From Macrotis lagotis (lineage: Eukaryota > Chordata > Mammalia > Peramelemorphia > Peramelidae): a DNA stretch of 64,000 bases. The stretch spans positions 256,872,294 through 256,936,293 of the forward strand of contig NC_133666.1 of NCBI RefSeq assembly GCF_037893015.1. Direction: 5' to 3'. Positions 14,672 to 42,089 of the stretch are shown piece after piece (the stretch's first letter is position 1; each line of letters begins with the position of its first letter). A program made the translations under genes and the position numbers. The notes beneath the pieces were generated by a model. The model ran no database searches, was not told the DNA's origin, and saw only the letters and a program-made list of their open reading frames with translations.

Positions 14672-15170
14672 CTAGTGGATTGATGAACTTTCAAATCTTG
14701 TAACTGCTCTCCTAAATATAGAACTGTCTCCTCTAAAGCATTAACCTTAGCTTCTAGCTTACTATCAATAATTTCTTGTGACATTAGGGCTCGGGAAACA
14801 TCCTGTGTGTGCTGTATGCACTTCTTGAATAAGAGCAGTGGAGGCCAAGGCAACAGAAGTTACAATAGCAATTAAGGCAAAAATTCCCAGTATCAGGGAA
14901 ACTATAAATCTTTTTTTGCCTGGAGAGAGCATTACTGACAACATCTAAAGCAAATAACTCAGAATCATCAGACCATGTCTCATTGAGGGTAGTAGGGAGT
15001 AGGATAAAAGAGGGTTGATGGATTACAATAACAGCATTTACATTAGATTTAGAATCAATGCAATTAGAAATTATAAAGGTGGTACAGTTAACAACAAATA
15101 AATCTGGAGACGTTTCTTTTATAATAAAATCAGCATCAGATGGAACTAAGAGCAAAAGGTGCTGAAACAC
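14554..15170 (-). pseudogene. env: env: end of SU and N-terminal TM, frameshifted
   Basis: The segment 14784-15170 reads as the last part of the surface subunit with a basic, cleavage-like RQKK motif. A hydrophobic stretch of fusion-peptide type follows in a shifted frame. The segment 14554-14853 contains a heptad region (SRALMSQEIIDSKLEAKVNA). The frames change at least twice. The N-terminal and central SU are absent, because the sequence upstream of 15170 jumps to the env leader. Confidence 0.75.
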
Positions 15171-15175
15171 ATGAT

Positions 15176-15391
15176 CTAACAGAGGGAGAGTTTTCTCCTG
15201 GAGGCAGGTGGAGGAATAAACGTGTCTTCAAGAGAGACCCTCCCAACTAGGTCCACCAAGGAAGAAATAGGGACAGCTTGTGAGTCATCATTCCTCTGGG
15301 GGTTTTGTGGATTGGGTCTTTTCCTCATAATGACGGATGAATCGATCAGGGATCCAGATAAGTGAGTCTTGAGTCCTGTGGGAATATACAA
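15176..15391 (-). pseudogene. env: env leader region overlapping the end of pol
   Basis: A 71-codon frame with an RKRPNPQNPQRNDD-type basic and polar start overlaps the integrase end by about 100 bases in another frame, as the env start does in betaretroviruses. It runs into the env SU end without the SU middle. The assignment rests mainly on position. Confidence 0.5.
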
Positions 15392-15600
15392 GCAAACTCT
15401 CCTCTGGAGTTAAAAGAATGCCTGGACCTTTCCAGGAGCCAGAAAGTAGCCAGTAATTTATCTGTAGTAGGGGGCCACTGCTCCACCCATACAGGCTCAT
15501 TAGATTTCCATAATATTGGGTCAGCTGTTAATTTTGGAACAATGGCCCCTCCTAAAAAGGAGGTAGTATTGTAGAAGAAGAACTAACAATAGGACTAGAG
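15288..15600 (-). pseudogene. pol: pol: RT N-terminus fused to integrase C-terminus
   Basis: From 15600 downward the minus strand reads LGGAIVPKLTADPILW and PVWVEQWPL, a conserved start of retroviral reverse transcriptase. Near 15450 it changes to the C-terminal DNA-binding domain of integrase (SWKGPGILL, then LIWIPDRFIRHYEE). RT palm, RNase H and the integrase catalytic core are missing, a deletion of roughly 2 kb by family length. The junction lies at about 15445-15460. Confidence 0.78.
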
Positions 15601-15850
15601 TCCTCTGGGGTAGAAAGCACAACTCTCATTTGGGACAGGATGTCCCCATAGAGAGGTGGGTAATGAAGGAATAACATAAGGCAGAAACTTCCCTGAGTCA
15701 TTATCAGAAAACCAATTAAGCATTTGTGAACTTTGCCCTACCCCTGTGGCTTGTCCAATTCCAAGCAATTTATTGGGGGTAGGTTGCACTGGCCATGAAG
15801 AAGGCTAATCTTTTCCAGCTATACAAGAGACATTCGCACCAGTGTCTAAA
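15595..15850 (-). pseudogene. pro: Retroviral aspartic protease remnant
   Basis: The catalytic motif D-T-G-A is legible at 15835-15846 (minus), followed by NVSCIAGKD. A stop codon then takes the place of the next residue. The downstream part has LLGIGQATG, a flap-like Gly-rich part, and a C-terminal VIPSLPTSLWG. Protease would cleave the Gag-Pro-Pol polyprotein. It follows dUTPase, as in betaretroviral pro genes. It is inactivated by the stop. Confidence 0.82.
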
Positions 15851-15905
15851 ATGCCTTGTATATATTTTCCATTAATCCTCAGAGTTTTTAATGGTCTGTG
15901 TTTTC

Positions 15906-16150
15906 CTACTGCTTGAATCCAAAAAGCAAAATCAGATGAACCAAATCCACAATTTCCTCTATTATATTTTGGGCTCCCAACCTTAAGTAAAGGTATTGGA
16001 GTTGTGCAATTCTCTGCCCCGAGTGAATTTGAATAGTTTTTCCTATTGGTGGGGTAAGCATGATTTGAATCTGTCCTGTATAATCAGAATCTATCACTCC
16101 TGGGATTACTGATATTCCCTGTAAGGAGTAGTGGACTAAACCAGCTCTAA
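15906..16150 (-). pseudogene. Retroviral dUTPase remnant
   Basis: YSLQGISVIPGVIDSDYTGQ is dUTPase conserved motif 3, which contains the catalytic-site Asp and Tyr. A later GQRIAQL continues the fold. dUTPase hydrolyses dUTP, and in betaretroviruses it is encoded at the start of pro. The N-terminal motifs are missing, and the recognisable virus ends at about 16155. Confidence 0.85.
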
Positions 16151-16155
16151 GCTTA

Positions 16156-16447
16156 TAATGTTATGGCCTTGTTTTACATACTTGTGTCAGTCTATTATTT
16201 ATCTTAACTTCTTTGAGAGTTAAGATACCCTATTGTTAACTTCTCTTATCTTAGTTATACTGACTTTCTTAAGCTTTACATTTTATGTAATTGAAAGCCT
16301 ATTTTAGCTTTTATTATCTCTTCTAGCCATTGCTTTGTTAAGAATTCTTCCTCAACCATAGATCTATTCTGCCTTATTTTGTTATTACCTTACTTTTTAT
16401 ACTTAGGCTGTGCAACCATTATGAATTTTGATATATAGTATCACCCA
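16156..16447. other. Unassigned DNA upstream of the ERV
   Basis: A 5' LTR or a continuation of the L1 ORF2 would be expected here but I can recognise neither. On the minus strand a short frame (VEEEFLTKQWLEEIIKAKIG) around 16290-16360 hints at an old transposon, family unknown. Confidence 0.4.
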
Positions 16448-16948
16448 GTGGTTCTCAATCTTTTTGATCTTTATAACCCTTTTATACTCTTAGCAAATCA
16501 TCAGGGACCCAAAAAACTATTGCTTATGTGCATTATATTCATCAGTATGTATTTATTAGAAATGAAAATATCTTAGTATTATTATGAAAATATCAGGTCC
16601 TGTACTACATACACTGGTATAACAAGCTAGTCTGAATCTGAATTCTTCCAAATTGATTTTTAGGTTTCTAAGCAATTCTTGCCAAATAGTGTCACCTTTT
16701 CCCTATTATTGGCTCATATTTTAAGATTTGTCAAACACTAAGCTGGTGTTCAATTGGATATGAATCTCATGTATTGATTTGGGATCATTTTTTTTATCTT
16801 GTTCTATAACATAATCCTTTACTAGTTTTATAACTATAAATCTGTAACTTAATTTAGGTAATATTTTAATTATATTGGTATAGCCAAACCATGAACAAGA
16901 AGTATCTCCAATAATTTGCCTTCCTTTTTCAATAAAAAATGTTTTGTG
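16448..16948 (+). mobile_element. hAT (Charlie-like) DNA transposon remnant, then unassigned DNA
   Basis: agtggttctcaatctttttg followed by atcagggacccaaaaaacta and tattagaaatgaaaatatct resembles the end of Charlie-type hAT elements (16448-16600). No transposase frame is seen. From 16601 to 16948 nothing is recognised. Confidence 0.5.
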
Positions 16949-17070
16949 AGGGCAACTAGGTGGAGCAATGAATAGAGAGCATCAACCCTGGTTAAATCCA
17001 ACCTCAGACACTTAATTACCTAGTTGTGTGACCTTGGGCAAGTCACTTAACCCCAGCAAAAAAAATCAAA
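16949..17070 (+). mobile_element. SINE, diverged
   Basis: agggcaactaggtggagcaa starts the unit, and aacctcagacacttaattac and gaccttgggcaagtcactta continue it. The B-box region has lost bases (ggttaaatcc). It is an older copy than most in the window and no clear target duplication is visible. Confidence 0.8.
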
Positions 17071-17089
17071 CCAAAAAAGAGAGAACATT

Positions 17090-17530
17090 TTGTGGTTGTT
17101 CTATATGTTCAATATGCTGTAGTAGTTTACCAAACAAATAGTTTATGCATTTTGAAGGTATTTTGAAACTAATTTTTCTTTCTATTTCATTCTAATGGGT
17201 TTTGAAAGTAAAATATAGAAAGACTTGTGATTTGTAGGGTTTATTTTGTATCCTGATACTTTATTTAAGTTATAATTTTAATTAATATTTTTTCATTGAT
17301 TCAGGCTTCTCTAGGTAACAATTTTGATTAATCTTTAACTATGCTTAGTTTCTCAATTATAGTGACAAAGTACTGACTTAAAAGAAGAGAAATAACCCTC
17401 CAATCCTTATTTTTTAAAAGAATGGAGACATAATTGGAGTTAAATATAACCTAAATGTCATAATTTAAATTCCCATGTAAAATTGAAAAGATTAAACAAA
17501 ACCATAAAATAGGACAGATTAGATAGGAAT
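17090..17530 (-). mobile_element. L1 ORF2 fragment, antisense, plus a shared unknown block
   Basis: At 17160-17330 the order (tagaaagacttgtgatttg, tttattttgtatcctgatac) parallels 11290-11345 and 53110-53330, that is, L1 ORF2 after the RT. From 17341 an aaaccataaaat-containing block resembles 11390-11520, in both cases directly after the same L1 point. It could be an insertion or a subfamily-specific segment. Confidence 0.6.
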
Positions 17531-17559
17531 TCATAACCCTATAATCTTTTGCTTAGAAG

Positions 17560-18410
17560 GAACATGCCCAAATAAGCAATGACATGTAGGAAAACCAGGA
17601 CACCAATGCATTGTGGGTAGAGTTGTGAACTGATGGAATCTTTCTGGAGAGTAATTTGGAATTGTGCCCAAAGAGCAATAAAAATGTGCATACCTTTTGA
17701 TCCAGCAACTGTAACCTGAAGAGATTATGAAAAAGGGTAAAAATCCCACATGTACAAAATTACTCATAGCAGCCCTTTTTATAGAGGTAAGGAACTGGAC
17801 ATTGAGGGGAATGGCTACACAAATTGTGATATATATATTTATATATATATATATATATTTTTTTCCCCCAATGGAATATTATTGTTCTATAAGAAATCAT
17901 GAGGGATGGGATTTCAGAAAAACCTGGGAAGATTTGCATGAATTGATGCTAAGTTAAATGAGAAGAACATTATACACATTAACAACAACATAAGGTCATG
18001 ATCAACCATGATGGACTTGTTCATTTCAGCAGCTCAATAATCAGACAATTTTAAAAGACTGGTGATGGAAAATAACATCCATTTCCAGAGAAGGAACTGT
18101 GGAATTTGAAAGAAGATCAAAGTTTATAATCTTCAGTTTTAAAAAAGTTGTTTTATGTATTGTCTCTTCCCCCCCTCAAATGTTTCTTTCATCCATTTGG
18201 ATATGATTCTTCTCTCACATCATGTTCATTTTGATCTATGTTTAGTATGGTTATAAATATAGCGCTTATATCAGATTGCTTTCTGTCAGGGGGAAGGGGG
18301 AAGGAAAGGAGGGAGGGAGAAAAATTGTCCAACTCAAAACCTTGTAAAAAAAAAACAAGGTTGTTAAAAATGATCATTGCATGTAGTTAGAAAAACAAAA
18401 AAGTATTTTT
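17560..18410 (+). mobile_element. L1 3' end and 3' UTR
   Basis: Clear colinear blocks run gagttgtgaactgatggaat, aattgtgcccaaagagcaat, tgcataccttttgatccagc, catgtacaaaattactcata, gaaaaacctgggaagatttg, atggaaaataacatccattt and a G-rich ggggaaggggg block before the A-rich end. This is the most complete L1 3' end on the plus strand. It includes a TA run at 17830-17858. Confidence 0.85.
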
Positions 18411-18639
18411 AAAAAAAGTGATGATATGCATAGAATAAAAATGAGATGCTGGAAAAAAATCGATCATTAGGTGAATCTTCAAAAGCAAGAATTAGAATAA
18501 TGCTATTATAAAAGCAGAAATATAATTTACAATACAGGGATAAACAAGCAATGTACACTTGAAGGATCACAGATAATGAGTTAATATCAGGGTTAAATTT
18601 ATAGACCTTAAATTCTAAAGGAAAAATTAATTGCATTGC

Positions 18640-19110
18640 AAAGAAAAAAATGTAGTTTCACAATAGTAGGAGAAATTAATTAACCTCTCATGGTTTTAGA
18701 CAAATCTAACAAAATGATAATCAAGAGTGAAAATACCGAATTGAATACATTACTGAAGAAATTCCACTTAAAAGAGATTTGATGCCTTCTGAAATAGATC
18801 GTTAAAATATATTTTTAATGATTTTTTTCATTTCTCTAATTATCTAGTTCTTTCCCCCTTTTGCCTTCTTTTCCCTTACTACAAAAAATGGTATTAATGT
18901 CTGTAATAGATTTGATTTTTATGAAAATTGACCATATTTTAGGGGCACAGAGAAATAATAGGTAAATTTAAAAAGTCAGAAAATATTAAATATATCTTTT
19001 ATAAACCATTATGCAATATAATAATAATTCAGGGAGCACAACAAACACAGAGACTTAAGTGGAGATTTAATAATGAAGTCTTAATAAGTGGAACAAAAAT
19101 TTTTAATTGC
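18640..19110 (+). mobile_element. L1 ORF2 fragment, endonuclease region
   Basis: tttcacaatagtaggagaaa (GGDFN-like region), attgaccatattttaggggc and cattatgcaatataataata follow the order of the L1 endonuclease-to-RT linker. Frames are broken. The bases between 18411 and 18640 are unassigned. Confidence 0.55.
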
Positions 19111-19124
19111 TTTCTTGGAGTTTT

Positions 19125-19808
19125 GAGAGTTGTACTATAGGATCTCAGAGACAGCTCAAGTTAGGAATCTGCCAGCTTTTAGTGCTCCCAAAATGATCTA
19201 ATCCAGGGCAAAGTCTTATTACTATCCCCCTGCTATGAGCTCTAGCTCTCTCTGACATTGGTTTGGGTCTGAGCAAGAGGCAGTGACCTGTGGACTGCTG
19301 CTAGACTCAGGTTACCATCAGCCATCTGCAAAGCCATCTGACTAAGTGATAGAACTGCAGGTTTCCTCTTGCTATATCTCTACCCTGCTAATACACAACA
19401 GGTTTCATTCTAGACTGGAAGCTGGAACTGAGTTTCCTCTCTGCTTCTGGGGTGACAACCACAAATTGCTCCATGCTTCTCACTCTCTTGGTACCTGTTA
19501 CCTGTACTACTTGCAACTTGACCTCTGCTTGGGAATGTCATCCTTAGCATGTCCCTGTCCTCAATTCTCCTCGCATCTGTGACTCAGAACTAGGTAACAG
19601 GCAATGGTGATACCTGTTCCTAAATTGTGTACAAATTTAAACTTCCTCTGTCCTTGTTCTGGAATGCTCCTGTGTGTTCCTGGCTGGGCCCCATTACCAG
19701 TGCTCTCAGATCCATTTGCTTTGTCTACTTATGCTGAATTGGGTTGGAAAAAAATGACTCATGGAGGACAGAAGGGAGCTTTTGCCATCTTGATTTTACC
19801 TCCTGACA
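19125..19808 (-). mobile_element. L1 5' UTR fragment
   Basis: The block is GC-richer than its surroundings and ends at 19808, where the minus strand begins with gtaaaatcaagatggcaaaa. A start of the type aagatggc is typical of marsupial L1 5' ends (also seen at 43500-43517). ORF1 does not follow, so the copy is 3'-truncated or rearranged. Confidence 0.6.
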
Positions 19809-19879
19809 TGATTTTTCCAAAACATAAGACTTACCAAGTTCAATTAACTCCTAGATCAAAGAAATTTTTTTTGTTTGTC

Positions 19880-20235
19880 AATGAGAATTTTTCATAACCT
19901 GTCTCCTTCCTATCTTTTCAGTCTTATATCTTTCTCTTCTCTATATTCTTACTTTGTTCTATATTCTAGTAACACTGGTTTCCTTGTAGTTCCTCACATA
20001 TGACCCTCCATCTTCTTTATGCCTTTGTAGAATATGTCCCACATGCCTGGAATGCTCAGCCCTTTCACTTGACTCTTTTTCCGTCCTCTGACTTTCTTCA
20101 AAGTTCAGTTCGAATCCCTTCCACTTCTGGAAACCTTTCTCTGGTTCTCCTAGCTGCTAATATTTTTCCCCCTCAGAATGTCTGCTCTCTAATCTGTATT
20201 TATCTTGGACTTACCTAGTAATTTACCTGTTGTCC
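19880..20235 (+). mobile_element. L2 LINE fragment
   Basis: tgcctggaatgctcagccct, then a cagttcgaatcccttccact block and aaacctttctctggttctcc match the 3' part of L2 in sense orientation. It is an old, non-coding fragment. Confidence 0.65.
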
Positions 20236-21184
20236 CACTTTGCTCTCCAGCCCCAATTAAAAAATGTAAATTCTAGGAACTGGTTTTTTTTGTTTTGTTT
20301 TATTTTTTATTTTATTTTCATTTATTTCCTATAGTCCTTTTTAGTCTCAGGTTTGAATCAGAATGAATTCCATATCAACATGGTACAAGTTTTTTTTTAA
20401 CTTTAGATTTAATATGTATTTGTTCATTTTAATTGTCTTTAATCACTGACTGTTGTCATTAATTACTAAGAATTAAATTTGAAGGTTGGATGACCTTAAG
20501 CTAGACATTTAAACTTTCTGGACCCCAATTTCCTTATTTGTAAAATAAAGGAGTTTGATTTCTGAGATATCTTCTATCTTTAAGATTCTATGACTTGAAA
20601 CTTTCAACTCAGAATTTTATTTTTCTCATGATATGAATAGGAATATATTTTGCTAATTTGACTTTCTTTCTGCCTAATTTTAGGAATGTTATAAGAATAG
20701 ATGATAGCTAAAATTTCCAAGAATTTATGCTACTACTTTGGAAAGCTTTGTTAAGACTGTTTTAGGTCATGAGTGGGATACTTTAGCCTGAACATTAGAA
20801 GAATATGGGGTTAGAATTAATTTGGTATCTCCTCTAGACATAGAGAGAAGTCAAATGGTTTTTCAATGTGGCTCCAAATTACCTGTTACTCTTTTCTGGC
20901 TCTCCAAGTAATTAGTCACTTGTTATTTTGTGTACATTTACAACTGATGTAGTTCTATTAAGAAAAAACACAACTCATGGTTTAATAAACTAGAGAATAT
21001 CAGTACAGAAGATTTAGGATGAAGATGATGATATACAGGAATGAATTGGAGAAGGGGGTATTAAAGATAAAGAAGACTTAGTCTTGATTTGATATCTACT
21101 AAGTGTTTTATATGTTTGAATATGAACTAACACCCTGGAAGAAATATTAGATGTATTCATTTATTCTCAGAGGATAGAGCTATG
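20236..21184. other. Mostly unassigned DNA with a MIR/THER-type SINE
   Basis: At 20485-20600 ggaccccaatttccttattt, gtaaaataaaggagtttgat and aagattctatga form a THER/MIR3-like tail in plus orientation. The remainder, including 20601-21184, shows nothing that I recognise. Confidence 0.5.
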
Positions 21185-25630: not shown

Positions 25631-26402
25631 ATTTCAGTATTACTCCCTTCAACTCATCCCCATTTTATCATCCTGTTTAACTCTTATTCTCTTTTAGAAC
25701 CTCTTCATTGAATATTGACCTAATGTCAAACTTCTGTTTTGCTTTTTGTTTTTCCTTAACATTACAAGGGAATCAGTTTAGCATGTAAACTTATCTGAAT
25801 GTATAAACCAGATAATTGAGGAGCAGTTGATTATTTATTCTTATATATCTATATCATTTACAAAAGGATATATTTCAGGATTCCTCTGAACTTGAAAGTA
25901 TAAGCATGCATTTTGAATATGATTCCACAGACAATTTTAAATATTTATTGTACACATATTTTTAAAGATTATAATCAATAAAGAAGACTGCATTGAGATA
26001 TTTTCTAGTCCCTCCCATATTGTGACTGAAAGCATTTTACTTATTGCTTTTTAAATAAAAAAAAAAATCAGAATGTTTTCTGTTTTAAAGAACAGTGATA
26101 TTGGCTTAGTACTACTTAAATTGTCACTTGATTAAAGTAGCATTATTTAGATGATGGTGATATTAAAATTTAAAATATTTTAAAATCCTTCCTCATTTTC
26201 ATCCTTTTTTCATATGGAAACTTTGTGACCAGTATGTTTCTGAAATTTTATTATTTATAAGTTTAACCTAAAAAGTATATATTGTATCAGTTTTATCAGA
26301 TAATTTATTATGAGTAGATCTACAGTTTCTTTACAAAATGAAAGTAGAACACTCATTTTATCAAAGTATTTGCTAAACTTTTTTGTTGATTTTTTTTATT
26401 AG
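25631..26402. other. AT-rich DNA before the first pseudo-exon
   Basis: No repeat or gene is recognised. The last 20 bases form a pyrimidine tract ending in a TAG acceptor at 26400-26402. Earlier exons of the nucleotidase-like gene, which would encode the N-terminal metal-binding motifs, were looked for here and in the L1/L2-rich DNA upstream, and were not found. Confidence 0.5.
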
Positions 26403-27120
26403 AAAGCCATGAATTTGATCTTAGTGCAGATATTTTGGAAGAATATAAAAGACAAATACATTTCCCATGGCTTGTCAGCAATATATATATGACAAATTTA
26501 CTTCAGAACCTCTTGGACATAGTACAGTTAAAAAAATTGATTGAAATAATATAATTGGCTTAATGAGACTAGTAGAAGAAGATTGACTAGATACATTAGC
26601 CACAGTTAGCAAATCAACTCTAAACTAAAAAGATTATCTTGATGTTGTTAATCAAATAGCTATAGAGTTTATAGAAAGTATCTTTCTAGGGGCGGCTAGG
26701 TGATACAGTGGATAGAGCACCGGCCCTGGAGACAGGAGTAACTGATTTCAAATCCAGCCTCAGACACTTAATAATTACCTAGCTGCGTGGCCTTGGGCAA
26801 GCCACTTAACCGCCCCCCAAAAAAAGTATCTTATCATTTCAATTACACACCTGAAATAGATAAATTATACACGGCTTGCCCAGAAAGCTCAAGTTGTAGA
26901 TGTGATTCTAGGGGGCCATGATCATGAATATGGAATCAAGAAAGTTAATGATAATGGACTGTGAAAAGTGGATCTGATTTTAGGAGCTTGACAAAGATAA
27001 AATATAAGACTCTTTGGTGAATTTTTTCAATATATATTTGAGGAATTGAACATTTTGAATCATTTGGAAGGAGATCCATGTATTAAAGTAATAGTAAAAG
27101 ATTATACCCAAAACCTCCAG
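26403..27120 (+). pseudogene. Decayed exon of a 5'-nucleotidase-like metallophosphoesterase
   Basis: Acceptor TAG at 26400-26402 and donor GTAAGT at 27121-27126 bound the exon. It reads SHEFDLSADILEEYKRQI (the GNHEFD-type metal-binding block), PWLVSN, EPLGHSTVKKI, GLM.LVEED.LDTLATVS, YLDVVNQIAIEFIE, then after a SINE LIISITHL, AQVVDVILGGHDHEYGIKKV (the GGHDH metal-binding block at 26911-26925), KSGSDFRSLTKIK and a last YTQNLQ. Enzymes of this family hydrolyse nucleotides with a two-metal centre. Damage: a 2-bp insertion in the AT run near 26470-26480, TGA at 26542 and 26584, TAA at 26626, TAG at 26857, a frameshift near 26955 and a SINE at 26685-26822. GGHDHEYG suggests the UshA/YfkN-like branch rather than NT5E. 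Confidence 0.85.
26685..26822 (+). mobile_element. SINE inserted inside the nucleotidase pseudo-exon
   Basis: ggggcggctaggtgatacag starts the body at 26689, ggagacaggagtaactgatt and tcagacacttaataattacc follow, and the end is an A run. A 10-bp duplication aaagtatctt is found at 26675-26684 and 26823-26832. Coding similarity resumes directly after it, so the SINE was inserted into the exon itself. Confidence 0.92.
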
Positions 27121-27159
27121 GTAAGTAAAACTTTATGATGGATATTGTCCTGGAAATCA

Positions 27160-27850
27160 TGGGTCAACTTAACAAAGATTCAAGGGTATATATTATCACA
27201 TTTCAAAGAACATAAATTCTTAGCAATTAATATAGCTCTGTGAAGAGGCAATAATGTCCTGCCAATTTAATTCTGTGAAGCTAGGAAAGCATGGTCTGAT
27301 TGTATTATACTTAAGCTAGTGATTAATATGTTTAAAGGATATTTTCAAGTAATAGTTTTCAATCAGACAGGAATTGGTCATGATACATATAGTATTCATT
27401 AACTTTATTGATGTACTAAATGAAGGGAATTAAGTCTATTCCTGTCATAGTTACAAATGACACTAAATTAGGTACAGTTATTAATACTGTAGGAAAAATT
27501 CTTCGAAATTAAAAATGTTTCCAATCTGGGTCATTAGATAGGAAAAATGGCTGTACCAAAAATAGGATGAAATTCATTAGGGCTAAGTGAAAGTAATTCA
27601 GCAGAAACAAAAAAATAACCAACACTAGCTATAGGGTTGGGAAGAATTAGCTAGACAAAGTATTGAAGGAAGTAGTAGTAATTGACCAGCAAGGCTAAAT
27701 ATCAATGGAAAGGTTGACATTTTATGTGTGCAAAAATCAAAATAATATTTGAAGTCATGAAATTAAATGAAAAAAATCAAATTGATCTTGTACATTACAA
27801 GAACTGGGAAAGTAGCCCCTTTTATAGATCTCTTTTTAGAGAATTATGTT
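27160..27850 (+). mobile_element. CR1/L3 LINE fragment
   Basis: tcatagttacaaatgacact followed by aaattaggtacagttattaa, then ctgggtcattagataggaaa, agtaattcagcagaaac and aaagtattgaaggaag follow the order of the CR1 ORF2 after the RT (the A-D-D-T-K-L region). It is diverged and full of stops, with limits uncertain by about 100 bp. Confidence 0.6.
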
Positions 27851-28927
27851 CAGTTTTGATCTGAGTGATTTAAAGCTAATATGAACAAATTGTAGACTTA
27901 AGATTAAAAGACAAAGAGATGGAAAATGGGTTCTCCATCGGTTAAGGGAATTAATTTATTGATTCACAGAAGAGAGAGTAAATTTGACTTTGGTCTTTAG
28001 ATTCTTAATGATAGCAATATTTGTCAGTTCCATAAATCCAGAAAGACAGGCAAAAGAAAATGTAATTTAAGAGGAAAATATTTGCAGATGGACTACTCCC
28101 AGAGATTATGAGTCTCTAACTCTTGAGATCTTCTAGCTCTTAAGACTTTTCTATTCCCAAGTCTTTTCTCCTCTCAAGTCATCTAGGTCACCCCTGCAAC
28201 CTCTGAGCAGATGAACTTTTGCATGAGGAGATATAAGCTTCTTACAGTTACTTGCTTGCTTTTCTAATTGTTTTCCATATACTTACATGCCTGGCAAATA
28301 ATAGTTGCTTAATAAATTGATTCACTGATTGATGTGTTCTTTCATTTTTCATGTTCCATACATTTATGTTGGAGGTGATACAATATTGAAAGCTTAAACT
28401 TTCACAAGAAATATCAATGAAGAGCTAATAACATAAGAATGAGGAAAAATCATGGATGATATTGGGACCCCTCAATCCATGAGTGAGAGAAGATATCAAA
28501 TACTCATTCATATACCTGCTTTCTTATTTTTATTAAAAAATTTTTGAGAATGTTCTACATATCAAAATATAAAGAGGGAAATAAGTTGGCTTTTGCAAAT
28601 GATTCTTTACAGTAGGTCAAGTCTTTGTAGTTCCTGCATGAAAAAGTAAAGAGAATACAATATTGTGCTATGATTATTTTTTAAAAAAACAACATATTTT
28701 TTACCTGTTAGCTCTGATGACTATCCTCCAACAAGGAGTCTGTCATGCAAGTTTTAAAATCTTAGAAGAATACTTAACAAATGTAATCATTGCAGATGTT
28801 ACTTCAAGAATATTTTGCAAAGTCTGTCTTTCTATTTATATTTTCATCAAGGATATCCTTAATACATATAAAACAATCTTGTAAAACTTTTATAAAGATA
28901 AGAAAGAAGGTATATTATTAAAGTCCT
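27851..28927. other. Unassigned DNA with an L2/MIR-like tail
   Basis: At 28280-28325 acatgcctggcaaataatag and ttgcttaataaattgattca resemble an L2 or MIR 3' end. A 73-codon open frame at 28663-28884 has no family resemblance. Nothing else is recognised. Confidence 0.5.
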
Positions 28928-29080
28928 CAGGGGTGGCTAGGTGGCACAGTGGATAGAGCACCAGCCCTGGAGTCAGGAGTACCTGAGTTCAAATCCAGCC
29001 TCAGACACTTAATAATTACCTAGCCATGTGGCCTTGGGCAAGCCACTTAACCCCATTTGTCTTGCAAAAACTAAAAAAAA
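28928..29080 (+). mobile_element. SINE
   Basis: ggggtggctaggtggcacag starts a full-length unit that ends in an A run. Duplication aagtcct is at 28921-28927, and again at 29082-29088. The tRNA-like head, the B-box-like gttcaaatcc and the cacttaataattacctagcc block are intact. Confidence 0.93.
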
Positions 29081-29149
29081 AAAGTCCTGAATCATTGCCT
29101 GCCTATTGATCATTTTCAAAATGTTCTGTACATATTTAAAATTAAGTAT

Positions 29150-29586
29150 GTTAAAAACAAAACCCATTATATTTCCTACAGATCCATCCTTCTGTACTTT
29201 GCTATTAATGTTGAAGGTGCTATAATCTTTCCAGTTTCACAGATTTGGTATTTTTCCCTCACTTGTTTGTCAGGTCAGTTATTAAATCTTTATCTTCCTG
29301 TCTTTATATCTCTGACATCCATCTTCTTTCTTCAACTTGTACAGCCTCAAACCTCATCATTTCTTGCTTGAATTGTTGTTGTGTCTTCCTGATTGGTCTT
29401 TTTCCTTTAAGTCTTTCACCACTCTAGTCCATCAGACATACAACTAATAAAAACTATTTCCTTTAAGTGCAAGTCTGGCTGCTCTTCATTCTCCTTTTCA
29501 TTAAATCATAGACCCTTATAGTAGGTCCCATTGCTTCCAGCATAAAATAAAAAATCTTCTCCTTTTGATTTTCTTTCCAAACATTT

Positions 29587-29683
<97 letters not shown>

Positions 29684-30150
29684 CTTCCCTTTTTGTATCA
29701 CATAGCCTTACCAACCTGGGCTTCTTGGCATTCCTTGCACATGATATTCTATCTTCCATCTCATTGCCTTTGTATGGAATTTCTTCCATTTTAGAATGCT
29801 CTCCTATGTCACCTTTACCATATATGTATGTATGTGTGTTTGTATGTATATATAGTATGTATAAAAGATTCTTCCTTTAGTTTATTCAAGTTTCAGCTCA
29901 AACACTACCTTCTGCAAGAGACCTTTTCTCAATCTCCAACTGCAGGTGCCCTTCCTTCCTAACCTACCTTGAATTTATTTCATATTATTTATATTTACAG
30001 TGTTTACATATGTATATATGTGAACCTACAAGTTGTTTCTTCCAGTAGAAAGTAAACTGTCTGAGAGCAGACTATTCCATTTTTGCACAAGTTCAGTCCC
30101 TAGCATAATGACTGACCCATACTAGGTATCAAACAATCAATTGACTATTA
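29150..30150 (+). mobile_element. L2 LINE region interrupted by a TA microsatellite
   Basis: ctgacatccatcttctttct, ttgcttgaattgttgttgtg, tccattttagaatgctctcc and tttcagctcaaacactacct are L2 3' blocks in sense orientation. The end is cagtccctagcataatgact-like (30089-30110). The microsatellite at 29589-29682 splits it. Confidence 0.65.
29589..29682. repeat. (TA)n microsatellite, about 94 bp
   Basis: Uninterrupted TA units except for one TG at about 29629. It explains two spurious open frames of alternating Tyr and Ile on the minus strand. Confidence 0.97.
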
Positions 30151-30377
30151 AAACAAAGCATAAAACTAGAGATATATTTTCACCAAGAGTATTCACTATT
30201 GTCATAAAGGATGTTTTAATGGAAATTTGAAATAGGAGAGAGAGAGAGATGCTCTGTAGCAATGAGGTTCTTCAGTTGCTTCTTTTTACAGATAATATTC
30301 TATCACTTGCCTCAAGCTGCAGAATATTTTAGGGTAATCTCAACAAGATCTATGATTATTCAAGAAATCTACCTCAT

Positions 30378-30533
30378 GGGGCAGCTAGGTGGCGTAGTGG
30401 ATAAAGCACCGGCCTTGGAGTCAGGAGTACCTGGGTTCAAATCTGGTCTGGTCTCAGACACTTAATAATTACCTAGCTGTGTGGCCTTGGGCAAGCCACT
30501 TAACCCCATTTGCCTTGCAAAAAAATCTAAAAA
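30378..30533 (+). mobile_element. SINE
   Basis: ggggcagctaggtggcgtag starts the unit. A 5-bp internal duplication (tctggtctggtctcag) follows the B box. The 13-bp target duplication aaatctacctcat lies at 30365-30377 and 30534-30546. Confidence 0.94.
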
Positions 30534-30546
30534 AAATCTACCTCAT

Positions 30547-31689
30547 AATAAAGGAGACACTAAAAAGAATTTAAAATGTTTGACTTTTTGATAAGATATA
30601 CGATTTTATGGCCAATCCATTGAATTCCTGTTGAAACTCTGGTCTGGGGTGGGGAAAGGAGGAAGGACCCTCAATTCATCCCTGTTCCTGCCAATTCCCC
30701 AAAGTATGTAAGAAATGATATAAAGTATGCCATTTAAAAATGCATTATTGTTAAAGCATTTGGGCTAGTCGTGAGTGATTGACAACTTGAGTAGCATACT
30801 GATTCCCAGAGAGTATTAAAAATGTCAAAAAAAAAAAAAACCAGGAAAAGATCTGTATAGGATAAAATAAAAAAGAATAAAGAATTTCTCAGGGCTATTG
30901 TGCATAAGTGATTTATGATTAGGACCAATAGCTTAAACAATCAATGAAATTGAAAAGTTATATGGGATCTCCAATTCTCCCAATTAGAATGTAATTTTTA
31001 GGGGATGGGACTCTAGTTCTTATTTTTATAACAATAGTGCCTAACATATTGCCTTAAAGATCATAGAACACTCTTAATAAATATTTAATTGAATGGAACA
31101 TATGATTTTCTATTCCTATTGGTTAAGAAATTTTCTTTCAAAGTTGGGTCAGATGATTTTTCTAGGTTCAATTCAGTGAACATATATTAAATGCCTACTA
31201 TGTGTCAGGCACTTAGCTATACAGAAGGTTTACAAATGTAAAGATAAAGGGAGAGAGGCACAGGGGCAGCATGTTCCATGACATCCAAACCAAGATTTAT
31301 CTGTAAAATACAGATATGCTCTCTATAAAAGAAGTTTTGGGAAATTTAGTGTTCTTCTCTTTAACTCCCTAATCAGTGGGGGAAAAGAGGCAGAAAGAGT
31401 TGTTGAATTTTAAAAATTAAGCATTGAGATGATGAGATTTTAGGTGATCGTCTTATCCTGGGTAGGGTATTCTGTTTCCTGGAATCAAAAATCAAGCACA
31501 GCTGCAGGTGAAAAGTGGCAAGTTAGTTGGTAAAAACCCTTCACTTCCATTTCTTTTCTTTTATCTGCATCTCTATCTTTCTCTAAAAACATCTCTTATC
31601 TATATGCTCTAATAATATCTTAAACTTTAGCTAAAATTAAGTAACTTTATTATTTCTCACTGTATTAGCACTATCCTGTTTTCCATGTT
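30547..31689. other. Unassigned DNA with a MIR-like trace
   Basis: At 31150-31240 taaatgcctactatgtgtca, ggcacttagctatacagaag resembles an antisense MIR or related tail. The remainder has no recognised repeat, and no gene. Confidence 0.45.
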
Positions 31690-32300
31690 TGCAAATTTGA
31701 GATTATTTACTCTTCCCTGCCATTCACCATTAATATCCAGTTATTTACCAACCACTCTATTCAATATTACCACCTCAGTACAGGCCCTCATTACCAATTA
31801 GTTGGTTATCATAACATTTAACCCCACTCTCAACCTCCCTCCAATCTGTCTTTTAAAGCACTTCAAAAATAATCTTATACATAGGAATATTCAGTTCACT
31901 ATGGTAAGAAATCATAGGGGTTCTTTATGTTTCCCAAATAAAGTTTAAATTCCTTTGTCTGTCATCTAAAACCCTTTCCATTCTGAGTATGTCCCATATT
32001 TACAGCCAATATCACATCTTTTCCTTTACATATAACATATTTCAGAGAGCCAATAATAGGAAAGATCTTTTCTCCTCATCTGTGGTCCATAATATCTCTG
32101 CTAGTTTTTATCCTGGATCATTTTAGGTTTGTTTGGATCTACAGCCTTACCAGAGTATCTTCCTGAAACACTTGGGATGGTCAGAAGACTTGAAATTTTA
32201 TTTTTCCTTTCAAACTATGAACATGGAAGGTGAATACAGAATTTGAGAGCTCATCACAGTCCTAATTTGAACTTTTATGGGTTATAGAATGAGAAACAAT
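31690..32300 (+). mobile_element. L2 LINE fragment
   Basis: acctcagtacaggccctcat, caacctccctccaatctgtc, tgtctgtcatctaaaaccct and ttctgagtatgtcccatatt are in L2 order on the plus strand. The 3' limit is uncertain. 32301-32600 shows nothing that I recognise. Confidence 0.65.
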
Positions 32301-32604
32301 TGAATAGCAGATTTTACCTTCCAAAAATAAATATGCAAGTGCTTAATTCTAACATTGTTCTTGGTTCTGTTAGTTTTATCTTGGGATCTCCTTTTGGGAC
32401 AATAGTGGAAGCCCTTCTATGATTCATCTACTGAAGGTAAACTCATTTATATCAATTATTACAAAGTTTCCATAAGATAATATTAGAATTCTGTTTTCAT
32501 GGATACAAAACTTTTGAGTAAATGACATTAGCAACCATAAATTAAATAATTTCTACTTTAATTAATATATAGTCACCATAGTATAATATAACCTAGAGAT
32601 AATT

Positions 32605-32910
32605 GTTCCAGTTTAGACTCTGCTAACTATGTGTCCTTCCAAGAAGCCACTTAATCTTTTAGTGACTCAATTTCTTCATATATAAGATGAGGCATTTGGA
32701 TGAGCTACCTCAGATCACTTTGAATTTTTTTTTTTTTTTTAGTTTTTGCAAGGCAATGGGGGATAAGTGACTTGCCTAAGGCTACACAGCTAGGTAATTA
32801 TTAAGTGTCTGAGGTCAGATTTGAACTCAGGTACTCCTGACTCCAGGGCCGGTGCTCTATCCACTGCGCCACCTAGTGGCCTTGTCACTTCGAATTCCAA
32901 AAGTATATGG
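32605..32910 (+). mobile_element. THER/MIR-type SINE cut by a younger SINE
   Basis: agccacttaatcttttagtg, actcaatttcttcatatata and ggatgagctacctcagatca make up the older SINE, which resumes at 32885-32910 after the insertion. The join point is the 12-bp duplication tcactttgaatt. Confidence 0.65.
32727..32884 (-). mobile_element. SINE, antisense
   Basis: A T run at 32727-32739 is the tail, followed by gcaaggcaatgggggataag, ctacacagctaggtaattat, tttgaactcaggtactcctg and ctctatccactgcgccacct. Duplication tcacttYgaatt is at 32715-32726 and 32885-32896, one mismatch. Confidence 0.93.
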
Positions 32911-34525
32911 TTCTTTTACTTAAAGAAAAAAACGCACTTATGGTATTTTAATATTTTATATGGTTTTTGGTCATGTTTTAAAAAATAGTTTTCCTCAGAA
33001 ATCTTAGCTATGTCTTATAGAAGGGTGTGAGTGATGTAGTTTGTTCTACATAAAGCAGTTAAGGAAAGCATATTTTAATACTATATTTTTTTCAAACATG
33101 AAATAATAGAAAAATCAGAGGATAAAAAGAAAGAGATGTAGACTGTATTCAATTACACGGGGAGTAACTCCATCTCCACTTTGTTGGTCTGTTTTGGTTT
33201 TTCTAATTCATGATTTTTAATAGTGTTCTCTTAATACTTTATTTCTTGGTTTCTTAGATATCCCTTAAAATCTTAAACAATTAATTAGTCATCACTTCAC
33301 TCAATAAATATTTATTGAGCATTTGCTATGTTACAAAAGTGTTTGAAACTTCAGTATCTATCTTATTTTGTTCCTTTTTACAACATGTTTTGCAAAATAG
33401 AAAGAAATGAAGGTATAATCATATTTTTTACTTGACCTCCTGGTTTTATCATTGTATAGTTCATCTGCCAATAAATAAGTACTTTTAGAAATAGTATAGG
33501 TCAAGATAAGCTAAGGAAAAAGCAAAGTGACTTTAATGATTAACATACTTTTAAAAAGGCCTGCACATTTTTTTCTAACATTGGAAAAATATTTCCCATA
33601 TAATGCCACATTTATTGACATTGGTTCCTGAGGAAATGATATGCTATTGCCATGGGTGATATTTTAAAAATTAGAAATTCTTACTTACTTACACAGACTG
33701 ATAGTTTAAATTGAAACATTTCTTTCAGTCCACAGATATGTAGGTTCTTCATGTTTTTTAAAAATTGAAATTTTTAAAAATTCTATGTAAGTCAGATATA
33801 GTAAGATTCCACTTAATAGGTAGGGTAAGCCAGCATACTCAGTTGTTTAGAATAGCCATAAACTTGAAAATAATTTTTAAAGCCTTTAAACATAAGAAAT
33901 GAAAAGGGAACCTGAAGAAGAAAAGACAGGAAAGTGATGGATGTCTGAGTGTCATCGGTTGGTTAAAAAAAACAGAAGCAAAGAGTCTGTTTAGTGGACA
34001 TCATAAAGGGAAGTTTCTCCGCTGCCCAAGTTCAATGGTGCCATGGTCTGTTGGGAAATAGCAGGAATATAACAGGGAAGAAAAACAAAAGTTGAGGAGA
34101 AAGAACAAGGACAATAGGATCAGTGTATGACAGACATGGTACCAGGGTCTAGAAATAAGGATAGGCAGAAAAGACAAAAGGAAAAGGAAAAGCAAAAGGT
34201 GTCCCACTGTAAGAAAAAGAATGACATAACAGCCTAAGAACAATAAATGTAGGATTGTGGATTCCCCCAAACACAGTAACCCTCACTGGCATAATACAAA
34301 AATTGGTCATCATAAAAACTTTCATTAGGTTCAATATGTAATGTTTAGTAAGGCAAGAAAGTCTACAACTTGTTTGAGAAAGATTTTCATCTTTTGTTAC
34401 TAAAAAATGTTTTAGAATTTATGGAATTAGCTTCAAATTATCAGAAATTTCATTCCCTAAGCCACTCTTGATAACTAAGGTATTAACCATACATAATTTC
34501 TTGCAATATGTATTGAAGAAAGGTA
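32911..34525. other. Unassigned DNA
   Basis: It is AT-rich intronic sequence. At 33297-33330 ctcaataaatatttattgag looks like an L2/MIR end. An adenine-rich block at 33890-34260 produces hydrophobic minus-strand frames that I regard as noise. Confidence 0.45.
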
Positions 34526-34538
34526 TTGTTGAGATTCT

Positions 34539-34701
34539 CTCTCTCTCTTTTTTTTTTTTTATTTTTTTCAAGGCAGTGGGGTTAAGTGGCTTGCTCAAGG
34601 CCACAGAGCTAAGTAATTATTAAGTGTCTGAGGCTGGATTTGAACTCAGGTACTCCTGACTTCAGGGCCAGTGCTCTATCCACTATACCACCTAGCTGCC
34701 C
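34539..34701 (-). mobile_element. SINE, antisense
   Basis: A CT/T-rich tail (34539-34567) is followed by caaggcagtggggttaagtg, gctaagtaattattaagtgt and ctctatccactataccacct. A 13-bp duplication ttgttgagattct is exact at 34526-34538 and 34702-34714. Confidence 0.94.
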
Positions 34702-34864
34702 TTGTTGAGATTCTTAAATATGTCTGTATTAATAGTTGCTTTTTTCCTGCCTTAGTGTCCACATTTCTGAGTATTTTTTATAATGTAAGAAAAAATATTA
34801 CATTGACTCTTGGTTCACAATTATCTTGGTAAATGCTTTATATATTCATTACTGTGCTCCTTTT

Positions 34865-35005
34865 GAGTGTTTTGGAGTAAGGATGGCTCCTGAGGAAAAA
34901 GTAAGACAGCATGATTCTCCTTCACTTAATTACAATTCACTTGCACAACATGGCATCACTTCCCTCGTGTCTTCAAAAATGAAGAACAAACAACAACATT
35001 TAAAT
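34865..35005 (+). mobile_element. RTE-derived SINE (Mar4 type), 5'-truncated
   Basis: ggatggctcctgaggaaaaa, gtaagacagcatgattctcc, tggcatcacttccctcgtgt and the end gaagaacaaacaacaacatt match a marsupial SINE whose tail is shared with RTE LINEs and ends in CAA units. A second copy is at 43632-43840. Confidence 0.75.
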
Positions 35006-35520
35006 GTAATCTTAAATACCAGAACTGTAATAATTACATTTTTGTTAAGAAGTTTAAGCCATTAAAAAATCCTTTGTTTGATCTATAAATCTAGTATTTT
35101 ATCTACTTCTATGATGAAATTTGATGTCTGTTCTAGCTAAAACTTTCTGATAATAACAGAATAATATATTCAATGAATTTAACGCGGAATGCAAAGTATG
35201 TGGCAGGAAAAAAATTAGGTAATATTTCTGAGATCTATGCTAGGCAGCATTAAGATCAAGACAAGATTCTAAGGATATAAAAATCTTGGAATATTTGTGG
35301 GAAGGTCATTGCATACATATAAGATTGCACTAAAGATAAAATTGGAAGAATGAAAATGTTCATGTGTTGGCATCAGAAAACTGAGAAAGGAAGATAAGTC
35401 AACATCTTAGTATCGTTAAATGTAATACCTCTGCTATTCTAGGGGCAGATTCCAGGATGAAAGCCCAGAAAAATGTGCTTTTTTCTAGTATTTTGTCATC
35501 TTGGTGTTTGCCTAGACTTC

Positions 35521-35573
<53 letters not shown>

Positions 35574-35990
35574 GGTTCTCTGGAATTCAGATGGATTTCA
35601 GGTTCTTAGAACCCACTCAGCACAATAAATCTAATCAACTTAGGTGTTTATAGGACCACTCTTGCATTTTTATTTACTTATTGGGCAATGGATCTCCTCT
35701 CATTTTTTTCCTATGTCTGGAGCTAAACTGAAATCTAACTGGGAGTTTCTAAAATCTGAGTATTTATTAGACTGGTCTAGTACACTTGCATACTGCTCTA
35801 ATTAGTTTCTTACTGTATACAAACTCTTAACCTAGGAATTTTCTGGCATATATTTCAATGTTTAGGTATCATTGGAATCTAAAGAGTAAAAAAGAACATA
35901 AACCACTCTCTTTTAAGCGTATTTTAAAAGGAAAAAAGACTAATAGAAAAATAGAATATGCTACTTTTAATTAGCTCTTTTTTCTTCTTA
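35006..35990. other. Unassigned intronic DNA with a CT microsatellite
   Basis: A (CT)n run lies at 35526-35572. The last bases (35975-35993) are a strong pyrimidine tract that serves the acceptor of the next pseudo-exon. No other feature is recognised. Confidence 0.55.
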
Positions 35991-35993
35991 TAG

Positions 35994-36141
35994 TATACAT
36001 TAAAAGAAGTTCTTTGTCCAATTGATATGGAATTAGATGGATGTACAATTAGTGTTAGAAGTTCAGAGAGCAAATTAGAAAATCTCAGAACTAATACAAT
36101 GTTGGAAGCTATTCGTGTTGATGTAGCACTACTTAATTAAG
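35994..36141 (+). pseudogene. Decayed exon 2, start of nucleotidase C-terminal domain
   Basis: The exon follows acceptor TAG (35991-35993). It is open for 48 codons and encodes CPIDMELDG, ISVRSSESKLENL and ADVALLN-type sequence (read here as VDVALLN). In 5'-nucleotidases the linker to the C-terminal substrate-binding domain carries exactly these LDG, R..E..LGN and DVALLNSG blocks. A TAA (36138-36140) stands where the family has Ser. The donor is weakened (G at 36141, then GTGGTT). The exon joins exon 1 in phase 0 and exon 3 in phase 1 without shifting the frame. Confidence 0.8.
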
Positions 36142-38068
36142 GTGGTTCTATTAACATTTTAAAAATGTTGATTACAGTTCAAAATCAATTCGAAACTGAA
36201 TACATATATTGGTCAAACTTCATACCAGCATTTGGACTATTAATAATACTATTAAAATACTATTCAGAAATACATTTTATCACTTCTGTGGCTTCAGATT
36301 TTCATTTGGTATACTTTTATTATGCTGAACCAAATTGATTTAGAATTTAAAAACTATTTTATTTGCAAACTTAAAGTTCACTTTCTCTTTGATTTGACTT
36401 TTGCTAATAATAAGCTTTTTAACATTTAATTTATTATAATTCCCATAAAGATTATTATGATTCCCTCAAAGTTGTAGATTTTGAACTCAGTGTATGGATG
36501 TCTTATTTGAAAATCATTAAATTTGAGCTGTTTAGTTTAATTTGAATAACTTAATTTGACTGAGAAATCTCAACACAGCTGCTCCTCTATAGGACATGGG
36601 AAACACTGTCTCATGACCACCCAGCACAGCATGCCCTGGTGTTGTGCTCTACTAGCAAAGCAGAATTGTAGTAGTTCAAAAAAACACAAAATGTGCAGAT
36701 TTAAAGAATACATCCCAAATGTTCACATGACCTAATTTTGCCTGACCTATGGTAGAGCATTCTAGAATTGGTCTGAACAGCCATACTTAGACATATTGCA
36801 ACTTGATTCTAACATTATGATATTTTTTGATCCTCTTCAAGAACAAAGAACAATACCTACTATGTGATCATAGGTAATTACAAAACTAGATTGATTTCTT
36901 TAAACTAAATAGTTAATCTTTGCTTCTACTCTGAACCCTAAAGTGGCTTGTCCTATATAATTTTCTTTGAATAATCATAAGGCTCTAATCTCAGCATGTT
37001 TTTAAACCTTAGAAGACATGAGAATTAGGGGGCGGCTAGGTGGCATAGTGGATAAAGCACCGGCCTTGGAGTCAGGAGTACCTGGGTTCAAATCCAATCT
37101 CAGACACTTAAGAATTACCTAGCTGTGTGGCCTTGGACAAGCCACTTAATCGCATTTGCCTTGAAAAACCTAAAAAAAAAAAGAAGAAGAAATGAGAATT
37201 AACCTTGTGTTGATTCAGACTATTATCAATATATTACATAATCCAGAAACCTAGATAATGGCTAGATAATGAGTTATTTCTGAGTTGAAATATGCTGCAA
37301 TTTCCTGCTGGCATCATTTAGCATTTACCTTAACCAGCAACCTTTTTAAAAGTCCCATTCACACAAGAAATTTAGGTGTGAGATAGAAAAAAATTTCCTA
37401 TTTTTAAGAGTTATTTGCATATTGGAATTGCTTCCTTGGAAAATCTGTAGAATCTTCCTATAGAGGTGTTTAAAAAGAGTTAACTTCTTATCAGTTTGGG
37501 AAGCTTTATATGTGTTGGGGAAAAACTGGAGATTTAAGTCTTTTTTATCCTTAGTGGTCAGTCAATGGTAATAGATTGAAAGATAAGTAGGTAGCTTTTA
37601 AGAATACTTTTTAAAATAACTATGGTAAGTGTGACTGCTTAATGAAATCCATACACTCCCCTGTGTTCATTAGTATAATGACCAGGGTGGAGAAAACATA
37701 TTAGAGAGTGGTATGGAAGTGGGCGAATTAATTAGATTGTAACCTAAAAATTCAGACCAATGGCTGACTCTGAGGAGAGGAGAAAGCCTTTCAAACTGCT
37801 TATAAGACTAGGCATTCTTGCAATTTGGGGCCTTCCCACTAGGAGAAATGATCATTTTCTACAGAAAAGTTAATTAATAAAAAAAATTATGCTAGATACA
37901 GTTCTCAAACTGACAAATATGGGGAAAATAGTGAAGAACTAGTGGGAAAATATATTTCTGAAATGTCATAGAGAAAACTGAAATGGTGAACTTCATGAAA
38001 TCATTGAGTTGACTTTTTGCTGTTAAAAATCAAATCAATAAATATATTGTTTTTTTACTGTATTGTAG
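36142..38068 (+). other. Pseudogene intron between exon remnants 2 and 3
   Basis: The intron is 1927 bp with one SINE (37028-37191) and otherwise unassigned AT-rich sequence. It ends in TTTTTTTACTGTATTGTAG at 38050-38068. Confidence 0.75.
37028..37191 (+). mobile_element. SINE in intron 2
   Basis: ggggcggctaggtggcatag starts the unit (37030), and an A/AAG tail ends it. An exact 10-bp duplication atgagaatta is at 37018-37027 and 37192-37201. Confidence 0.94.
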
Positions 38069-38234
38069 GTACCCTTTGTTCTGATTGAATACATGTAGCA
38101 AGGAATTTCATTTTGCACAATCTTCTGATTATTCTTCCCATAATGGACCCATTTCTAGTTGTCAGAGTAACAGGTGTACAACTGCTTGAAGCACTTGAAA
38201 ATGGGGTTTTCAAATACCTAGACCTTATTGGGAG
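38069..38234 (+). pseudogene. Decayed exon 3, nucleotidase C-terminal domain
   Basis: Acceptor TAG at 38066-38068, donor GTATAT after 38234. With the G left from exon 2 it begins GTLCSD (family: G-T-L/F-R-S-D). A TGA stop (38085-38087) and an IH codon pair follow, then ILPIMDPFLVVRVTG, VQLLEALENGVFKYLDLIG. The P.D..VV..VTG..L...LENGV block is the signature of the 5'-nucleotidase C-terminal domain. Apart from the stop the frame is clean. The exon ends in phase 2 (GGG AG). Confidence 0.85.
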
Positions 38235-38639
38235 GTATATATAATATATTTTTGCCAGATGACTTTATATTGGGAATTATATCCATTTCTTCTTTGTGTC
38301 CTTTTGTTCTCTGCTATAGACTTTTTACTTTATTTATTTTTACTCTTCTTTCTCCCACTCTCCAATAATTAAGTGCAGATAGTTACACACACACACACAC
38401 ACACATTTACATATACATACCTATATATATCCACCCATACATACATATGCATTTGTAAGACTGTGCAATGCTTATTTCTATTTGTCCTCTGTTTCAATGA
38501 AGGTATATAACTTCTTTCTTCATAAGTCCAAGTCTGGTCTAGTAATCTTGCATACTTGCATACACCAGCTCATTTCCTATACATAGCAATATTACAACTT
38601 TATAATAGCTAGTTATTTTATATAGCCTAAAATGATACT
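38235..38639. other. Unassigned DNA with an AC microsatellite
   Basis: An (AC)n run lies at 38384-38405. No gene or recognised transposon lies before the L1 that starts at about 38640. Confidence 0.6.
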
Positions 38640-40318: not shown

Positions 40319-42089
40319 ATTCTGATCACCTTTTCCAGGTGATTGACTTTTTTTTTCATAATTTTCTTATTTTTTTAAAATTCCTTACTCTCTCATTTGA
40401 TTCTCAAAGTCTTTTTTGACTTCTTCTATGAATTCTTTTTGGTCAGGTGGCCATTTGACACTACTCTTTGGGAGAGAATAGGCCTTTTATTTTTTTCCTT
40501 CAATATCCTCCTTTGAAGATGAACTCTGGTTTTGTTTAGTCCCACTGTAAGTGTCTAAAATTGAGTTCTTTTTTCCTTGCCTGCTCTTTTTTTTTTTTAA
40601 AAAATTATTTTTCCTTATTTTTAGCAGCTTTTAAATCTATTTACCTCTAGTCCTGGGGTGGGTTGCATTCTTTATTATAAGTCCATCAGAGAAGTTACTT
40701 CAATGATTTCCCCCATAATTGCTATTGTTAACTATATTTCCCCTACATTCTATTACTCCCCACTCCCATTTATTCTATTCTATCTCTCCTTTCACTCTAT
40801 CCATCTTCAAAAGTGTGTTGTATCTGATTACTCTCTCCCATGATCTACCTTCTCTTCTATCACCTCCATCTCCCCTCCCCTCCATCTGCCCCCTTTCTTC
40901 CATCCCTTTCCTCTCTTTTTTCCTCTAGGGTAATATAGATTTCTACACTATTGAGTGTCTATGTTATTTCCTCTCTGAGCCATTTCTAATGAGAATGAAG
41001 GCTCACTCATTTCCCCTCACCTTCCTCCCTTTTACTCCATTGGAAAATCTTTTTCTTGACTCTTTTATGTAAAATATCTTAGCCCATTCTACTTCTCCTT
41101 TCCTTTTCTTCCGGTAATTCCTTTTTCACCCATTGACTCCAACTTTATATTATACTTTTATATTCAGTTCCCTCTGGTGCTTTGTCTTTATATGTTCCTC
41201 CTAAGTGCTTTAATAAATGAGAAGGTTCATATGAGTTATTAGTATCTTCTTCCTCTGCAGGACTGCATGTAGTCCAAAAATCATTAAGTCCCTCATAATT
41301 GACCCTTCCTGTCCAACCTCTCTATGCTTCACCTGAGTCCTGTGCTTGGACATCAAACTTACAGTTCAGCTCTGGTCATTTTAACAGGAAAGTTTGAAAG
41401 TCCTCTATTTCACTGAATGTCCATCTTTTCCCCCAAAAGAGGATGTTCAGTTTTGCTGGGTAGATGATTCTAGGTTGTAATCCAAACTCTTTTGCCTTTC
41501 CGAATATCCCAAATCCTGACTGTAGTGCTACGGCAATTTAATTGTTTCTTTTTGGTTGTTTGTAGTATTTTGTCTTTGACTTGGGAATTTTGGAGTTTGG
41601 CTATAATATTCCTGGGAGTTTTGGGGTTTGTTTGGTGGGAAATCTTTTTCAGGGGGTGATTGATTAATTCCCTCAATTTCTATTTTATCCTCTGCTTCTT
41701 GGTTATCAGGGCAATTTTGTTTGATTATTTCTTGAAAAATGAAGTCTAGGCTCTTTTCCTTGTCATCACTTTCAGGTAACTCAATAATTTTTAAATGATC
41801 TCTCTCTCTCGGATCTATTTTCCAGGTCAGTTATTTTTACAATGAGATATTTCATATTTTCTTCTAGTTTTCCATTCTTTTAGTTTTGTTTTATTGTTTC
41901 TTGATTTCTCACAAAGTCACTAGCTTCCCTTAGCTCCATTCTACATTTGAAGGAGTTATTTTCTTCAGAGTTTTTTAAATCTCCTTTTCCATCTAACCAA
42001 TTCTGCTTCTTAAGGTATTATTCTTTTCATTGACTTTTTGTACTGCTTTTTCCATTTGATCTAAACTGGTTTTTAACATGCTGTTTTCT

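Follow-up and report, generated by a model that had tools for sequence, protein, structure and literature searches.

The remains of a spliced gene for an enzyme of the 5'-nucleotidase family, found in a 64,000-nucleotide stretch of the Macrotis lagotis genome (contig NC_133666.1, positions 256,872,294 to 256,936,293 of the forward strand; the whole stretch is called the window below), raise the question of whether a gene that other vertebrates retain has been lost in this lineage, or whether a duplicate has died while an intact copy survives elsewhere in the genome. The analysis indicated an unprocessed and most likely unitary pseudogene, orthologous to the gene for a vertebrate-wide two-domain metallophosphoesterase/5'-nucleotidase-family enzyme, a reading to which a probability of roughly 0.8 was assigned.

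Two marsupial proteins, P0055 from Dromiciops gliroides and P0059 from the wallaby Notamacropus eugenii, were used as tblastn references against the 64-kb window. Four collinear plus-strand exons were found, matching codons 63-412 of the 583-residue marsupial protein:

8052-8202, plus strand: exon 2 (the label used here), codons 63-114; acceptor AG at 8050-8051 and donor GT at 8203-8204.
26403-27120, plus strand: exon 3, codons 114-307; tblastn E = 4e-59 with P0055; a short interspersed element (SINE) lies within it.
35994-36141, plus strand: exon 4, codons 308-357; tblastn E = 1e-15 with P0055 (35994-36143); starts in phase 0 and ends in phase 1.
38069-38234, plus strand: exon 5, codons 357-412; tblastn E = 1e-18 with P0055 (38068-38238); donor GTATAT.

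A first-pass annotation, made from the letters alone, had already described the last three segments, with their order, their splice sites and their phases (0, then 1), and both the sequence and tblastn with P0055 bore this description out. The exon at 8052-8202, as well as the SINE with its target-site duplication in exon 3, are features beyond that annotation. Exon 2 was matched at E = 3e-14 by P0055 and 3e-15 by P0059 (tblastn span about 8050-8204), and also by a snapping-turtle protein at E of about 2e-12; it joins position 26403 in phase 1. The alignment of exon 3 to P0055 fell into two linked pieces; that at 26318-26488 reaches back into the intron, and the other covers 26485-27120. Identity to P0059 was 41 of 52 residues in exon 2, 141 of 193 in exon 3, 38 of 50 in exon 4, and 42 of 57 in exon 5 (alignment 38068-38238).

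The acceptors ATTAG, TATAG and TGTAG directly precede exons 3, 4 and 5, and the donors are GTAAGT after 27120 and GT after both 36141 and 38234. Aligned to P0059, the exon limits have phase 2 at the start of exon 2, then 1, 0 and 1, and phase 2 at the end of exon 5. All three introns begin with GT and end with AG, their phases agree, and the exons are spread over 30 kb. Two database fragments, P0003 from Marmota monax and P0005, which by eye is close to the rodent protein P0056, end or depart from the family sequence at both limits of exon 3; because they suggest the same two ends, these limits look ancestral. The relic is unprocessed and has kept its introns, and the earlier statement that it is not a retrocopy stands.

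The identity of the ancestral gene was established by database searches. The joined relic peptide found 51 proteins at E ≤ 0.001, all from one family, in agreement with the 5'-nucleotidase-family assignment made from the letters; they included two turtles, a marmot fragment, a shark, metagenomic entries, salmonids, tunicates and others. In another search with a joined peptide, of 348 residues, the top matches among 50 clusters listed were P0059 (E = 5.1e-161) and P0055 (E = 4.5e-160), with 74% identity over 100% of the peptide. A profile search found 1937 proteins at E ≤ 1e-30, and the best 120 of these 1937 included the full-length proteins P0055 and P0059 together with proteins from echidna, rabbit, lemurs, rodents, dugong, lizards, tuatara, turtles, coelacanth, lungfish, sharks, bony fishes, and many invertebrates. 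The gene is therefore retained by other vertebrates, as had been proposed. The further proposal, that this might be its sole relic among vertebrates, was rejected on the full-length proteins found in the database searches, which come from two other marsupials, one monotreme and placentals of several kinds; nor is it what is left of a rare gene.

The C-terminal domain 5_nucleotid_C (PF02872) was found in the joined relic peptide above the curated cut-off (29 bits against 23.6), and scored 130-136 bits in four full-length orthologues. The Metallophos domain (PF00149) gave no match on the broken peptide, searched without exons 1 and 2, and did match the four full-length orthologues; these four proteins, two of them marsupial, carry both domains. 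A GNHEF-like block and the GGHDHEYG block are present in the relic by alignment.

The intact gene appears in databases under annotation-derived names: 'mannosylglucosyl-3-phosphoglycerate phosphatase-like', 'YfkN-like', and 'snake venom 5'-nucleotidase-like'. The relic belongs to the same family as the vertebrate proteins named in the first two ways (P0055, P0059, P0062 of echidna, and P0053 of a turtle) and is 74% identical to the marsupial pair over codons 63-413; it differs from them in being broken and in having no detectable codons 1-62 and 414-583. NT5E (CD73) has the two-domain architecture in common with the family, and the wallaby protein aligns with CD73 chains over residues 38-478 (E of about 1e-34). 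However, the CD73 motifs are GGHSNTF and NDVHS, while those of the relic's family are GGHDHEYG and NDVYD, so that NT5E does lack a GGHDH motif of this form, as noted earlier. A further difference from NT5E is that the N terminus of P0059 has, by eye, no hydrophobic stretch resembling a signal peptide. These differences in motifs and N terminus suggest that the enzyme of this subfamily acts inside the cell. The wallaby protein also matches by sequence the bacterial structures 2z1a and 1ush, the YfkN chain 3gve, and a snake-venom 5'-nucleotidase structure. The NCBIfam model for UshA matches the joined peptide at E = 2.9e-10, but with 39.5 bits against a curated cut-off of 600; the peptide falls far below the NCBIfam curated cut-offs for both UshA and YfkN families and, unlike them, comes from an intron-bearing gene.

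The copy in the window is dead, as the first-pass annotation had concluded. There are six in-frame stops, at 26542, 26584, 26626 and 26857 in exon 3, 36138 in exon 4, and 38086 in exon 5. The reading frame is broken five times: once in exon 2, near 8107, and four times in exon 3, near 26486, 26953 and 26997 and at the SINE site. Whether the SINE site counts as a break depends on the limits chosen for excising the element. Two residues have been lost, the SGD-block Asp at codon 83 and the GNHEF Asn at codon 115. In CD73 and UshA the aligned residues belong to the metal site, and the metal-binding residues of the relic are accordingly not intact.

Loss of constraint was measured against 20 full-length vertebrate orthologues, hand-picked among the best 120 of the 1937 profile matches and compared over 351 columns. 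Of the 132 columns that were invariant in all 20, the relic has changed or lost 35 (27%), 6 of these by stops or frame breaks, and at the 219 variable columns it differs from P0059 at 55 (25%). When each of the 20 proteins was left out in turn, it changed only 0-6 of the columns invariant in the remaining 19, and the Dromiciops and Notamacropus proteins differ from each other at 12 of the 351 residues. The near-equal change at invariant and variable columns is what would be expected if nearly all of it came after function was lost, and indicates that selection on the protein ended long ago. In a maximum-likelihood tree of 21 sequences the relic and the two marsupial proteins formed a group (support 85/86), and the relic's branch, at 0.32, was more than 20 times as long as those of the intact proteins (0.013 and 0.014).

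A simple neutral simulation required about 0.14 substitutions per site to change 25% of the codons, and yielded about 3.7 stops at that level, compared to the 6 observed. This amount of decay can be set against the age of the element inserted into exon 3:

26675-26832, plus strand: WSINE1-like tRNA-derived SINE together with both copies of its target-site duplication; the element itself, of ~135 bp, occupies about 26685-26822.

The element is flanked by a 10-bp target-site duplication, AAAGTATCTT, at 26675-26684 and 26823-26832. Blastn matched it to 20 further places in the window, in 13 cases over nearly the full length. Fourteen copies were compared: their distance from their consensus ranges from 2 to 13%, with six at ≤5%, and the exonic copy differs from it at 6 of 122 positions (about 0.05). 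Since decay of ~0.14 per site exceeds the ~0.05 that separates the SINE from its consensus, inactivation of the gene probably long preceded the SINE insertion. The window as a whole is rich in SINEs. Outside CpG sites, two of the 20 matches to the exonic copy differ by less than 3% from the consensus, which shows that the family was active fairly recently in the host. The structure of the element, short, tRNA-derived and with a poly(A) tail, agrees with what the consulted parts of PMC3403934 say of WSINE1, and suggests that it is a WSINE1 copy. According to the same parts of that paper, WSINE1 is not found in opossum; in the Tasmanian devil it is the SINE with the latest activity, a place taken in the wallaby by WALLSI2 (PMC3403934). 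By itself, this type of SINE suggests an Australian marsupial as host, probably a dasyuromorph.

The two ends of the gene were not recovered. A profile search of all six frames of the window, which included three C-terminal sub-models, gave no match above 7.6 bits for codons 1-62 or 414-583. The power of this search was estimated with randomly decayed pieces, the same models and a 12-bit threshold, in 100 cases each. C-terminal pieces of 30, 40, 50 and 60 residues were detected in 59, 81, 88 and 97 cases at 27% change, and in 52, 74, 87 and 87 cases at 35% change; for N-terminal pieces of the same lengths the counts were 39, 51, 67 and 71, and 31, 46, 61 and 64, the test being weak where exon 1 or very short exons are concerned. 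Because C-terminal pieces of at least 40 residues would mostly have been detected, the 25.8 kb downstream probably contain no C-terminal exons, which would lie further away or have been deleted. Exon 1 may precede the first base of the window.

These missing ends are one of several points that weigh against a unitary pseudogene, as a long intron, a deletion and a truncated duplicate look alike. In addition, the support of 85/86 for the marsupial grouping is moderate and below the level that the program marks with a star, and within the marsupial group the intact pair excludes the relic in only 16% of 200 bootstrap trees. An intact copy may also exist elsewhere in the same genome, in which case the locus would be an old, non-processed segmental duplicate that died while the orthologue lived on. 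Segmental duplicates keep their introns too, and neither end of the gene was found in the window. The protein database shows one name per cluster and hides members more than 90% identical; the cluster of P0059, in which only one of 13 members is named, might have a member from the host species. Against this, no cluster closer than P0059 and P0055 was found among the 50 listed (E ≤ 1e-60), apart from whatever members more than 90% identical to these are hidden, and the exons stand in their natural order across the locus. A dead duplicate was therefore considered unlikely, and the absence of any closer protein among those 50 favours gene loss; the relic is probably an orthologue rather than an old duplicate.

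Two other explanations were judged far less probable still. Splice sites that are still recognisable might point to a functioning gene with odd exons, with sequencing errors mimicking a pseudogene, but this is hardly credible given the number of stops and frame breaks, the exonic SINE, and the equal change at invariant and variable columns, which are unlike sequencing error. A chance or unrelated match to generic metallophosphoesterase motifs might be suspected from the short blocks of the relic, which score weakly when searched singly; matches with E values down to 5e-161 over 348 residues, in order and to one family, make such a coincidence extremely improbable. If the locus is a unitary pseudogene, the gene would have lost its function early in the lineage, stops, frame breaks and missense changes, those at the two metal-site residues among them, would then have accumulated at the neutral rate, and the WSINE1-like copy would have been inserted into exon 3 later. 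This order, with decay first and the SINE second, is the probable one on the sequence comparisons.

No flanking protein gene was recognised among the 41 open reading frames (ORFs) of at least 90 amino acids, stop to stop, of which 10 were scanned against Pfam at E 0.01 and 31 were inspected by eye; the 10 scanned gave only L1 and retroviral matches at curated cut-offs. Remains of an endogenous retrovirus lie on the minus strand at 13765-16083, in the intron between exons 2 and 3, where one ORF matches the retroviral protease RVP (E = 1e-7) and a separate one a GP41-type envelope (E = 2e-19); another ORF matched MMTV_SAg weakly, below its cut-off (21.3 bits against 25). No direct repeats of at least 60 bases, as expected of paired long terminal repeats, were found in 12000-20500. 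An L1 piece on the minus strand at 4512-4814 matched Tnp_22_dsRBD above the cut-off and Transposase_22 just below it. The minus-strand ORFs at 5102-5563 and 41528-41830 are L1-like by eye, the former with a Sec10_N match below the cut-off and the latter with no Pfam match.

The relic probably records a loss within marsupials and is a further case of a well-known class of pseudogene, not a new type of element. No paper on the loss of this gene was found by title or the start of the abstract, in searches that covered part of the matching literature and few subscription papers. Among the matches listed, the named mammalian holders of the gene are scattered: rabbit, lemurs, some rodents, dugong, echidna, and two marsupials. 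No monkey or human holder was named among the clusters listed, at one name per cluster and within the best 120 of 1937. Mammals may have lost the gene more than once.

An enzyme under strong constraint in other marsupials would thus have become dispensable in one lineage, if the gene was truly lost. It is tentatively suggested, as a possibility somewhat short of even odds, that a conserved, little-studied and apparently cytosolic enzyme of the 5'-nucleotidase family, present in animals as far apart as sharks and lemurs, was lost outright at the base of one Australian marsupial order or close to it, and that the whole order lacks the gene. If true, mammals would have lost the gene several times independently, this order-wide loss included, and the losses together would form a natural knock-out series in the search for the substrate. 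The names given to the family are still guesses, and comparing lineages with and without the gene could reveal its physiological substrate.

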